From Singulisphaera sp. GP187 (GTDB taxonomy: Bacteria > Planctomycetota > Planctomycetia > Isosphaerales > Isosphaeraceae): a stretch of 64,000 nt of DNA. The notes below the pieces were generated by a model that saw only the letters and a list, made by a program, of their open reading frames with translations, was not told the origin of the DNA and searched no databases. The stretch covers positions 586,727-650,726 of the forward strand of contig NZ_FSRB01000002.1 in assembly GCF_900129635.1 (NCBI RefSeq), in the 5' to 3' direction. Every line of letters begins with the position of its first letter. Position 1 is the stretch's first letter. Both the position numbers and the translations under genes were made by a program. Of the stretch, positions 36,515-41,966 are shown piece by piece.

Positions 36515-37012
36515 TCAGGCGATCGCAAGCGGTCTCGGCGGCTTATCGAGGCGGGAGGCCCGCCGGGCCGGGAGGAGGCACCGCGAGGAGGGAGCCGTCA
36601 GCGAGTTGATCGCTGCGGGCAAGGGTTGCCCGAACTCCGTGAGCGTGGCGGACTTGCAGAAGCGTGTGGAGACGCCGGAAGGAACGTTGGGCAGGCCCGA
36701 ATCACCGCAGGGAGCGGCGTTGAGACAGGGACTCGCATTAGCCAGGGGCCCTGCGACCGTTGGCTCGGCAACGGGTGTGGTCGGGAGAGTGGCTTGGGGT
36801 TTTCGCGGTTTGCAGCAGCACGAGTGACCACGGCAGCGATCGCCGCATTTGCAACTGTGAGCGTCAGCTTCCGCCGCAACACGCTCCGTTGCCTTGAGCG
36901 AGGACGCCGTTGCCTCCTTGCCTCCCCACCCGAGACCGAATGCGAGCAAGGTCGCGGCCAGCAGCCACCGCGTCCTCTCGCCGGTCAGGGGGTCTCGGGG
37001 GCAGTGTCGCAT
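36515..37012 (-). CDS. Exported cysteine-rich protein
   Basis: 165 residues from the ATG at 37012. A basic leader and hydrophobic segment ([16 protein letters not shown], then ATASS) look like a signal peptide. The mature N-terminus has a tight cysteine cluster, [18 protein letters not shown] Pro/Ala/Thr-rich region with scattered Cys follows. The layout (signal, Cys cluster, Pro-rich tail) resembles the protein at 37962-38435, though the sequences are not clearly homologous. It could bind metal. No known family. Confidence 0.55.
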
Positions 37013-37230
37013 GCAAACGGCCTTCCATGCGCAAAATGGGAGTGGCTGCGAAATCAAGGCCCTATCTTTGATTCCAAAACATGCGTTGTCAAGCTGTTGA
37101 ATTCAACCTTCGCCATAAGTCGGGTGAGCTGGGCCGACCCGACGAAACAGGCTCCTCAGCAAAATCTGTGGGTGTGGTTCGGCTCAGGGCATAGTGTCCG
37201 GGCCCGGATGTTTCTGTTGCCGAAGAGAAT

Positions 37231-37961: not shown

Positions 37962-38435
37962 ATGTCCACGACGCTCCGCCATCTTCGTCACTCGCTGATT
38001 GTCCTCGCGACAATCGTGGGAGCGTCGCTGGCTGCGAGCGAGACCTCGGCCTGCACGACGATGGCGCGAGGTGATCGGGCCTGTGTCACGGTTTGTGGGT
38101 GCTGCACAACCAAGACGAACGACGTCCCAGCGAATGGGGTGAACGTTGCGGTTGAGTTGGTAAGCCCAACGGTGGTGATTCCGCAGGTTCCGGCGGGGTG
38201 TGCGACCTCATCACCCGGCGGGGCTTGCTCCTGCCGGTCGCAGGAGCCGGTGGCTCCCACGCCTAAACCCTCGCGAACGACCGCGGAGGGGCGCACCGAG
38301 TTGAGCCCAGGCTCGGCTTGCGTGCCTTTTGGCGACGATTCGGCCACACGAATCCAGCTCGCCTTGCAGGTCCCGGCGGTTCAAAACCCGCCGAAGACCC
38401 CACTCTATCTCCGCAACGAACGCCTCCTGTTTTAA
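37962..38435 (+). CDS. Exported cysteine-containing protein
   Basis: 157 residues from the ATG at 37962. Signal peptide RHSLIVLATIVGASLAASET. The mature part opens with CTTMARGDRACVTVCGCCTT, then a Val/Pro-rich stretch, a second Cys group (GCATSSPGGACSCRS) and a Pro/Thr-rich tail. No enzyme motif. It is one of three exported Cys-rich proteins within 3 kb; their clustering suggests a shared role such as metal binding or oxidative protection outside the cytosol, but this is inference. Confidence 0.6.
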   Translation: MSTTLRHLRHSLIVLATIVGASLAASETSACTTMARGDRACVTVCGCCTTKTNDVPANGVNVAVELVSPTVVIPQVPAGCATSSPGGACSCRSQEPVAPTPKPSRTTAEGRTELSPGSACVPFGDDSATRIQLALQVPAVQNPPKTPLYLRNERLLF

Positions 38436-38694
38436 CGCCTCCCCTGTGACGTAGCCCTTTTGGCTTCGCTGGCGAGAGAGCGTTTGCGCCGCCCCCTGTC
38501 CGTCCTGGACAAGCCGGGTCCGCGATGCTCTGCCGTCACCGAACCTTGAGCTTCGACACCGGGGATGAGGACGACGGCCTGCCCATTGGGTTGGTTGCGG
38601 TGGGACGTCCTCCCCCTCCCTGGAAACGGGGTGCGGGAGCGGTCCGCGCTGTGCGGACCGCGATTCAAAGGCGAAGAAACCGAGGAGACGAGAT

Positions 38695-39159
38695 ATGAAT
38701 CGGCGTGGAATGATCGGGATGGCGACGGCTCTGGTCCTGGCACTGTTCACCGGAGCATCGGCCAGTTTCGCGGAGACCAAGGCCAAGTCGGCCTGTGTTT
38801 GCTGTGGAAATGCTTGCGCCTGTGAGCTCTGCACTTGTGATATCGATGCCAAAGCGGGCCAGGCGTGTGACTGCTGCGAAGGTGCCGCTTGCTGCTCGGC
38901 CGAGTCCGCGACAGCGGCCAAGGCGAACGAGTCGGCCAAGGTCAAGTCGGCCTGTGCTGATTGCTGTGGCGCTGCTTGCGTCTGCGATGCCTGCACCTGT
39001 GATGCCAAGGCCAAGGCGGGCCAGGCGTGCGACTGCTGCGAGGGTGCCGCTTGCTGCGTGGCAACGCATGAGGCGACGGCCAAGGTGAAGGTCGAGAAGG
39101 CCGGCAAGGCCTGCTGCTCGATCAAGGGCAAGAACGTGCCGACTGCGACCACCCGCTAA
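38695..39159 (+). CDS. Exported metallothionein-like cysteine-repeat protein
   Basis: 154 residues with GAGGAGACGAG before the ATG. Signal peptide (MIGMATALVLALFTGASASF-AE). The mature part has two homologous repeats. Each combines a group like CVCCGNACACELCTC with ACDCCEGAACC, 12 Cys per repeat; a final CC brings the total to 26 Cys in about 130 residues. Spacers are rich in Lys, Ala and Thr. Cys-X-Cys, Cys-Cys and Cys-X-X-Cys groups without aromatic residues are the marks of metallothioneins, but those are normally cytosolic. Likely to bind Cu, Zn or Cd in an exported location. Confidence 0.8.
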   Translation: MNRRGMIGMATALVLALFTGASASFAETKAKSACVCCGNACACELCTCDIDAKAGQACDCCEGAACCSAESATAAKANESAKVKSACADCCGAACVCDACTCDAKAKAGQACDCCEGAACCVATHEATAKVKVEKAGKACCSIKGKNVPTATTR

Positions 39160-39484
39160 CCTCCGGCGCGGCCGCCCCCCGGTACCAGCGGAAGGCGGCC
39201 GCGGTCTTGCCCGAAGGAAAGACTGCACTCGAGAGCGGCCTCGCACCTTGGCGAGGCCGCTCCCTGATCACATTCTACCGCGTTGAGGCGTGTTACCGTC
39301 ATGAACCGTCGAGAAAAAAAGTCTCATGTGAACGTCGGTCGAAAAACGTAGCGCACGCCGGTCTCCGGTGTTCGGTCGAAAAACGTAGCGCTCATGGATT
39401 CACTCGTGGCGTCTGGTACACCAAAGCGAACCTGGTTTCGCCTCGATACCCCACGCGTCGCGAGGTCTATGGGTGTTCACGCAC

Positions 39485-40975
39485 ATGCACAACTGGGCCG
39501 AGATCCGCCGCCGCGTCCTCGTGGACGGGCAGAGCAAACGTTCCATCTGCCGCGAGTTCGACATCCACTGGGATACGCTCCAAAAGATCCTCCTCCATAA
39601 CGAGCCTCCGGGCTATCGCCAGGCCCGGCCCCGCGCCCGGCCCAAGCTCGAGCCGTTCTTGCCGATCATCCACCAAATCCTCCAGGACGACCGTAAGGCC
39701 CCGAGGAAGCAGCGGCACACCGCTCGTCGCATCTTCCAACGCCTTCGCGATGAACATGGCTACCGGGGCGGCTTGACCATGGTTCAAGGCGTCGTCCAAA
39801 CCTGGCGGGAGGGGCAAGCTGAAGCCTTCCTCCCGCTCGTGCACCGGCCCGGCGACGCTCAAGCGGACTTCGGACGCGCCGTCATCAACATCGCCGGCCA
39901 ATCCTGGACCGCCGCGCTGTTCGTCATGACGCTCACTCATTCCGATGCGATCTTCTGCGCCGTCTTCCCGCGAGAATGTACGCTCACCTTCCAGGAGGGA
40001 CATCGCCTTGCCTTCGCCTGCTTTGGCGGCGTACCCCGACGGATCACCTACGACAATACCCGGATTGCCGTGGCTCGGATCATCGGCCAGCGAGGGGAGG
40101 GCGGGACAGCCGAGTTTCTCAGAATGAAGAGTCATTACTTGTTTGAATCACACTTCTGTCGCGTCCGCTCCCCCAACGAGAAAGGACATGTTGAGTCGCT
40201 TCTCGGTTACGCACGTCGTAACTTCCTCGTGCCGGTCCCCGATGCCGTTTCCTTCGACGCCCTCAATGCACGCCTGGAGCAGGGCTGCCGGAGCGACCTG
40301 GGCCGCACGACGCGGGGCCAGACCCTAACCAACGCCCAGCTCCTGGAGCGGGAGCGGGCCGAGCTGCTGGCCCTACCCGAGGAGCCGTTGAGCATCCGCC
40401 AGGTGGAGACGGTGCGGGCCAATTCGTTGTCGCTGGTGCGATTCGATCGGAACGACTACTCGGTCCCGACTCGATACGCACATCGACGCCTGACCGTCGT
40501 GGCGGACGTGGAACGGGTACGGGTGGAGACGACCGAAACGATCGTCGCCGACCATCCTCGATCCTGGGATCGCTGTCGGACGATCTTCGATCCGGTGCAT
40601 TACCTCGGCCTGCTGGAGCGGAAGCCCGGGGCGTTGGACTTCGCCCTGCCCCTGGCGGGCTGGGAGTTGCCGAGGTGCTTCGCCACACTCCGTGGACGCC
40701 TGGCCGAGGACCAGGGGTCGCGAGGCCAGGTCGAGTATATCCGCGTCCTGCGACTCCTGGAACGAGCCACGCTCGAGGAGTTGACCGCGGCGGTTGAGCA
40801 GGCCTTGAGCCTGGAGGTGTCGGCGGTCGACGGGGTGCGGTTGATCCTCGAGCACCGGCGGGATCGGCCGACGGCGAGGTTGGATCTGGAGAGCCGCCCC
40901 CACTTGCAACGCGTGAGCGTCCCGGCGCCGGACCTGAGCGGCTACCGTTCGTTGTGCGGGGAGGTGCCGTCATGA
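39485..40975 (+). CDS. istA: IS21 transposase IstA
   Basis: 496 residues from the ATG at 39485; a GTG at 39473 is also in frame. An N-terminal helix-turn-helix (RRRVLVDGQSKRSICREFDI) precedes an integrase core with the DDE residues in DAQADFGRA (Asp), RITYDNTRIAV (Asp) and NEKGHVESLL (Glu). The C-terminal beta domain (SLVRFDRNDYSVPTRYAHR) binds DNA. The stop overlaps the istB start (ATGA at 40972-40975). Intact. Confidence 0.96.
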   Translation: MHNWAEIRRRVLVDGQSKRSICREFDIHWDTLQKILLHNEPPGYRQARPRARPKLEPFLPIIHQILQDDRKAPRKQRHTARRIFQRLRDEHGYRGGLTMVQGVVQTWREGQAEAFLPLVHRPGDAQADFGRAVINIAGQSWTAALFVMTLTHSDAIFCAVFPRECTLTFQEGHRLAFACFGGVPRRITYDNTRIAVARIIGQRGEGGTAEFLRMKSHYLFESHFCRVRSPNEKGHVESLLGYARRNFLVPVPDAVSFDALNARLEQGCRSDLGRTTRGQTLTNAQLLERERAELLALPEEPLSIRQVETVRANSLSLVRFDRNDYSVPTRYAHRRLTVVADVERVRVETTETIVADHPRSWDRCRTIFDPVHYLGLLERKPGALDFALPLAGWELPRCFATLRGRLAEDQGSRGQVEYIRVLRLLERATLEELTAAVEQALSLEVSAVDGVRLILEHRRDRPTARLDLESRPHLQRVSVPAPDLSGYRSLCGEVPS

Positions 40976-41847
40976 GCAAGCCAAACTCGGTTCCGGGGGA
41001 CTTGGTACGTTTGAAGCCGATGCTGAGGTCATTGAAACTGCCGACGATCTGGGCGGAGTGCGAGAAGGTCGCCCGGCAGTGCGCGAGTGAACGAGTGGAC
41101 CATCTGGGTTACCTGTCGCGGGTGTGCGAACTGGAGATGATCGAGCGGGAGCGGAAGGCGGCGGCGCGGCGACTGAAGGGCGCACGGTTCCCCGCGGTGA
41201 AGACGCTGGGTGAATTCGCGTTCGCGGCGCAGGCGGTGATCCCCGAGATTCTGTTGCACGATCTTTCGAGATGCCATTACATTGACAAGCGAGAGAATGT
41301 ATTGTTTGTCGGCGCGTCGGGTACGGGGAAGACGCACCTCGCGACCTCGCTGGCGGTGGAGGCATGCCAGCGAGGTAAGCGGGTGCGTTTTGTGCGGGTG
41401 ACCGAACTGATCACGAGCCTGCTGGAGGCCCGGGATCAACACCAACTGGCGAGGCTGAAAGGCCAGTTGAGCAAGCTGGACCTGCTCGTGCTCGACGAGT
41501 TGGGTTACGTGCCCGCGAGCAAGGTGGGAGCGGAGTTGCTCTTTGATGTAATCAGCACATCATATGAGAGAACCAGTCTGATCGTGACGACGAACCTGCC
41601 GTTCGAGCGTTGGACGGAGGTTCTCTTGGACGCGAGCTTGACGGCGGCTGCGTTGGATCGCCTGACGCACCGCTGCCACATCGTGGAGACGGGTAGTGAG
41701 AGTTATCGCCTCAAGGAAGCGAAGCGTCGTCACGCGGCTCCGGATGGTTTGAATCGCGCCAGGAGGGCATCGAGCACGGACCTTGTGAACGAAAGTCGAG
41801 TGGCTGAGCGATCGTCCCCTGTGGACGACCCGAGCTCAAACAGGTAA
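40972..41847 (+). CDS. istB: IS21 ATPase helper IstB
   Basis: 291 residues. DnaA/DnaC-like AAA+ ATPase with Walker A GASGTGKTHLATSLA, Walker B DLLVLDELGYVP, sensor 1 LIVTTNLPFERW and the arginine region DRLTHRCHIVE. It assembles on DNA and directs IstA to the target. Coupled to istA by a four-base overlap. The C-terminal tail is somewhat longer than usual and polar. Confidence 0.96.
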   Translation: MSKPNSVPGDLVRLKPMLRSLKLPTIWAECEKVARQCASERVDHLGYLSRVCELEMIERERKAAARRLKGARFPAVKTLGEFAFAAQAVIPEILLHDLSRCHYIDKRENVLFVGASGTGKTHLATSLAVEACQRGKRVRFVRVTELITSLLEARDQHQLARLKGQLSKLDLLVLDELGYVPASKVGAELLFDVISTSYERTSLIVTTNLPFERWTEVLLDASLTAAALDRLTHRCHIVETGSESYRLKEAKRRHAAPDGLNRARRASSTDLVNESRVAERSSPVDDPSSNR

Positions 41848-41966
41848 CGTCTGTTTACCGGGCGCTACGTTTTTCAACCGGCGTGCGCTACGTTTTTCGA
41901 CCGACGTTCACAGTCTCACGACCCTTGGAGCGACGGCCACCGGACTCGCTGCTTCTGAGCCTGTTC

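Follow-up and report, generated by a model that had tools for sequence, protein, structure and literature searches.

A putative exported metallothionein-like protein encoded behind a conserved structured leader in a cassette of Isosphaeraceae

We analyzed a 64,000-nucleotide stretch of the genome of Singulisphaera sp. GP187 (the window) and found a gene for a cysteine-rich protein with a signal-like N-terminus, preceded by a small partner gene, X, and a structured leader (Table 1). The protein is probably an exported Cu(I)-thiolate buffer in a copper cassette with X, the structured leader, a copper storage-type protein (Csp) and efflux. On present sequence comparisons, it is best read as functionally metallothionein-like and outside the known families tested.

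Table 1. Positions of the cassette and neighboring features in the window
Feature	Position	Strand	Basis or remarks
Gene X, small exported Cys-containing protein, first cassette gene	37962-38435	+	directly upstream in 8/8 genomes
Structured leader, gap between X and the metallothionein-like gene	38555-38667	+	alignment A2, pairing counts, covariance model R1
Leader long stem P1	38559-38623	+	alignment A2
Leader hairpin P3	38639-38661	+	alignment A2
Putative exported metallothionein-like protein	38695-39159	+	ATG to TAA, 154 aa, 26 Cys, two 12-Cys modules
Two downstream hairpins	39165-39263 (39165-39206; 39231-39263)	+	alignment A3
Broken csp, 5' remnant, codons 1-5 MNRRE	39301-39316	+	16/16 match to S. 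acidiphila csp start
IS21-type element	39327-41912	+	ends TGTGAACGTCGG.../...CCGACGTTCACA; GTCTCA flanks both sides
IstA	39473-40975	+	within IS21-type element
IstB	40954-41847	+	within IS21-type element
Broken csp, 3' remnant, nt 18-50	41914-41946	+	97% over 33 nt

An earlier note on this DNA had described an exported metallothionein-like protein with duplicated 12-Cys repeats, and its coordinates matched the open reading frame exactly, as did its count of 26 cysteines. The two modules span residues ~34-67 and ~87-121 and hold 12 cysteines each, and a CC pair lies close to the C-terminus. The internal duplication, which the note had called obvious, was clear in the alignment of module 1 with module 2, whose score was 157, whereas 2000 shuffled comparisons averaged 41 and peaked at 87. 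At the level of motifs the duplication is partly exact: ACDCCEGAACC is repeated without change in the second module, whereas CVCCGNACACELCTC, also given as duplicated, is altered to CADCCGAACVCDACTC in its second copy. Cysteine makes up 16.9% of the protein, and the runner-up among the 131 window ORFs of at least 100 aa reaches 6.7%. The Singulisphaera acidiphila orthologue (DSM 18658, NC_019892.1) is 75% identical. Because dN/dS against this same-genus orthologue is ~0.29 and all 26 cysteines are kept, the ORF is, judged by its substitution pattern, a real gene under purifying selection.

The N-terminus, MNRRGMIGMATALVLALFTGASASFAE, resembles a signal peptide, and M1, R3, R4 and G8 (M-x-R-R...G) are invariant in all eight homologues. 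The invariant Arg-Arg suggests compatibility with Tat export, and Sec export is also possible. The mature parts of the eight homologues are small, rich in lysine and alanine, and 19-28% cysteine, mostly arranged as CC, CxC and CxxC; Phe, Trp and Tyr are absent from every one of them, and His and Met almost absent. Such a cysteine-dense, aromatic-free make-up with CC, CxC and CxxC pairs is the classic metallothionein composition. The earlier naming of the protein therefore fits its motif density, aromatic-free mature part, signal-like N-terminus, modular duplication and planctomycete-only homologues. AlphaFold gave a mean pLDDT of 48, with no confident fold and no bundle, a result that is uninformative for metallothioneins.

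We then compared the protein with known families. It matched no Pfam family at E <=10, Buf1/DUF2282 included, had only a chance match in NCBIfam (E 1.1) and no match in a PDB sequence search at E <=10; the known prokaryotic metallothionein profile (SmtA type, Pfam/NCBIfam) gave no significant match. "Metallothionein" is therefore a functional analogy here, since no known metallothionein family matched, and it refers to the broad traits found: small size, richness in cysteine, CC, CxC and CxxC motifs and a mature part free of aromatics. These traits are shared with SmtA/BmtA, PmtA and MymT, as are presumed thiolate clusters; the window protein differs from them in its Cys pattern, in its signal-like N-terminus and in carrying 12-Cys modules in tandem. 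With bufferins (Buf1/Buf2, MNIO-modified) it would share the character of an exported Cys protein tied to copper stress, but the cassette has no nearby MNIO or partner gene, and the number and spacing of cysteines differ. Yeast Cup1, a small cytosolic Cu(I)-thiolate protein of eukaryotes with 12 Cys, is like one module in Cys count alone and has no sequence relation to it. Bacterial metallothioneins are treated as cytosolic (PMC7558416), and PmtA has been found at the cell surface, yet without a signal peptide (PMC11237414). Csp1-type proteins would resemble it as exported Cys-rich copper stores with a twin-arginine N-terminus, and csp is a neighbor in three relatives; Csp is, however, a rigid four-helix bundle before metal binding (PMC7558416), and the metallothionein-like protein has neither a sequence match to Csp nor a predicted four-helix bundle. 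The protein and the cassette were undescribed in the literature searched, which covered open-licence papers.

The gene occurs in 8 of 45 Isosphaeraceae genomes, distributed over five genera, as determined by protein search. Profile A1, run against 392 genomes drawn evenly across the phylum, matched one at E <=1e-5, the window's own genome, and a GTDB contig scan returned four loci, all planctomycete. Plasmid-borne spread was rejected, with no match among 72,556 plasmid records. Homologues with one to three modules are thus confined to Isosphaeraceae within the sets searched; the homologue search that the earlier note had proposed found planctomycetes only, in all of these sets. Of the eight proteins, five have two modules, those of L018 and L019 have a single one, and the L020 protein consists of one module followed by an irregular Cys tail. 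A divergent copy in a further genome, G014, has about three modules and 37 Cys.

Gene X encodes a signal-bearing protein with conserved Cys (ACxTM..CGCC, CxCR) and an equally conserved C-terminal PLYLRNxRLLF; its products are ~30-54% identical between genera, and the AlphaFold model was of low confidence. X is more widely spread than the metallothionein-like gene, being present in 21 of the 45 Isosphaeraceae genomes. Among 30 X loci examined, X was followed by an exported Cys-rich ORF in 9 and by an HMBD-CusB type ORF (HMBD, heavy-metal-binding domain) in 19, and three loci had neither type. The HMBD-CusB type ORFs were recognized by motif, except for one tested with Pfam; at one locus (L062) the HMBD motif lies ~1.1 kb off, farther than at the remaining X loci. 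The Pfam-tested ORF (L071) belongs to the window's own genome, where a second copy of X (G000:C4:2145608-2146048) lies directly 5' of an HMBD-CusB efflux gene, with matches to the CusB barrel-sandwich (3.9e-74) and HMBD (1.5e-8). On the minus strand of the window, positions 36515-37057 encode another protein that looks exported; it has a brief run rich in Cys and no Pfam match, and of all loci searched S. acidiphila alone conserves it.

The gap between X and the metallothionein-like gene keeps a block of ~105-125 nt in which 44 columns do not vary between genera, against the ~30-54% identity left among the X proteins. In the consensus of this leader, pairing holds in 95.8% of cells, with changes on both sides in six pairs; when the partner was slid by one to three bases, pairing fell to 44-57%. 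As read from the alignment, different genera have kept the leader structure through compensatory changes. Folded on its own, the window leader has ordinary stability (z -1.4), and the structural case therefore rests on the alignment. Covariance model R1, built on eight cassettes, recovered all eight training loci, as expected, and found two new places, G036:C1:2750443 (E 1.4e-7) and G014:C127:5088 (E 8.8e-6); in the 45 Isosphaeraceae genomes it matched nothing but these cassettes at E <1e-5. Both new places are independent confirmations, each having an X homologue on one side and an exported Cys-rich ORF on the other. The ORF behind the G014 leader has metallothionein-like modules. The one in G036 (L038, near 2750443) is 241 aa long and carries KAACCDAKAA/ACEKKAAC repeats; its signal-like N-terminus, its leader and its gene X are those of the other cassettes, and the slot holds another kind of Cys array. 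Weaker R1 matches included one marginal place (E 0.09) and opposite-strand matches to these palindromic stems.

Two other explanations of the leader were rejected. A genome-wide repeat does not fit, as the upstream DNA is unique in the window's genome and, in relatives, P3 occurs nowhere but beside this gene; nor does a small coding region, as length differences are not multiples of three. The leader may work at the RNA level, through its palindrome in the DNA or by marking a site of processing. Its role may be regulatory, and we regard it as a candidate new cis-regulatory element.

Downstream of the gene, the second of two hairpins resembles leader P3. The P3-like sequence has two copies each in G031 and G028, where it only flanks the metallothionein-like gene (with at most one mismatch). 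The downstream hairpins are kept even where csp is missing, and they show some compensatory change; support for them is weaker than for the leader. Neither the leader nor the hairpins had an Rfam match at the gathering score. The best Rfam match, M23 at 39164-39222 (+), overlies the first downstream hairpin and scored 25.7 bits, short of the required 41.2; it is probably due to chance.

In three relatives (L015, L016 and L021) a gene downstream on the same strand encodes a Cys-rich protein whose N-terminus carries twin arginines. The L015 protein matched solved Csp chains over residues 37-143 (5fig, 1.5e-14; 5fjd, Csp1, 6.4e-9), and its N-terminus, MNRREILTTLGATATGLVAL, was read by eye as a possible Tat-type signal; DUF326 matches were just below the Pfam cut-off. 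By sequence match over the bundle, this neighbor is a Csp. Proteins of the Csp1 type are known to store Cu(I) in the periplasm after Tat export (PMC7558416, PMC5171941). In L016, csp is followed by a gene for a P-type ATPase, which we assigned by eye as a Cu-ATPase on its YHS-like, HMBD and CPC motifs. An intact csp adjoins the cassette in only three of eight genomes. At least one csp-like gene was found somewhere in all nine carrier genomes checked, so linkage is frequent, not universal. The metallothionein-like gene may be transcribed separately from csp. One carrier, G064, has five csp-like matches, one of them with an internal stop, which is an expansion over the one or two of the other carriers.

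At the window locus, csp is broken. Its two remnants lie on either side of an IS21-type element, for which Pfam returned IstB_IS21 (1.9e-68) and Mu-transpos_C_2 (5.8e-23), and the remainder of the gene is missing. Compared with S. acidiphila, the rest of csp has been deleted or replaced up to ~45800. The sole full csp of the window's genome lies elsewhere (C5:5903027, 53% identity). A completely sequenced isolate, S. acidiphila DSM 18658, has the cassette intact.

In the reading that we favor, the protein would be exported to the periplasm, would remain largely unstructured and would bind several Cu(I) ions in Cys-thiolate clusters, with about one cluster per 12-Cys module. The cassette would run in the order X, structured leader and thiolate buffer, to which several relatives would add a Tat-type exported Csp and a Cu-ATPase. 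Copper entering from outside or pumped from the cytosol would be caught by the buffer and held for Csp or for CusB-type efflux. We infer copper as the metal, reduced thiols and the export route; copper is suggested because csp and the Cu-ATPase lie downstream in relatives and because X otherwise occurs beside CusB-type genes of copper/silver efflux. The main cargo of an exported metallothionein-like protein could instead be Zn, Cd or several soft metals. Zn and Cd are also bound by Cys-only ligand sets, the bacterial metallothionein SmtA binds Zn (PMC7558416), and HMBD and CusB-type proteins can serve other metal efflux systems; the csp-type neighbors, however, are copper-specific stores in characterized cases (PMC5171941), and we consider a non-copper cargo unlikely.

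A thiolate buffer must also be weighed against the periplasm itself, which can oxidize thiols, and the 12 Cys of each module allow six disulfides. The protein might accordingly be a disulfide-rich exported structural or redox protein, rigid or cross-linked through oxidized cysteines and without a metal role, as the even number of Cys per module, the exit from the reducing cytosol and the small, lysine- and alanine-rich mature parts would allow. We judge this quite unlikely in view of the dense CC and CxC pairs, the lack of aromatics and the copper-linked neighbors. In addition, the G036 cassette slot is filled by a quite different Cys-rich repeat array, which suggests selection on cysteine number and not on one disulfide fold. 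Very unlikely, in our estimate, is a precursor modified by an MNIO enzyme to carry thiooxazole groups that bind periplasmic copper, although bufferins, as exported proteins containing Cys, do chelate copper in the periplasm (PMC12452194). No MNIO gene adjoins the cassettes of the eight carrier genomes, and the protein lacks the Pfam match noted above; this reading is disfavored because MNIO genes (PF05114) occur in only four of the eight carriers, on other contigs or far away, and are missing from the other half.

The leader slot holds several payload variants, with one, two or three modules or an unrelated Cys repeat. A broader and rather improbable reading is that Isosphaeraceae possess an RNA-controlled periplasmic copper-thiolate system, in which a new and possibly metal-sensing leader would govern a swappable and expandable exported payload together with Csp. 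If the reading of the protein as an exported copper-thiolate buffer is true, some bacteria would buffer copper by metallothionein-type clusters outside the cytosol, and this would raise the question of how exported thiols stay reduced or become loaded before export.
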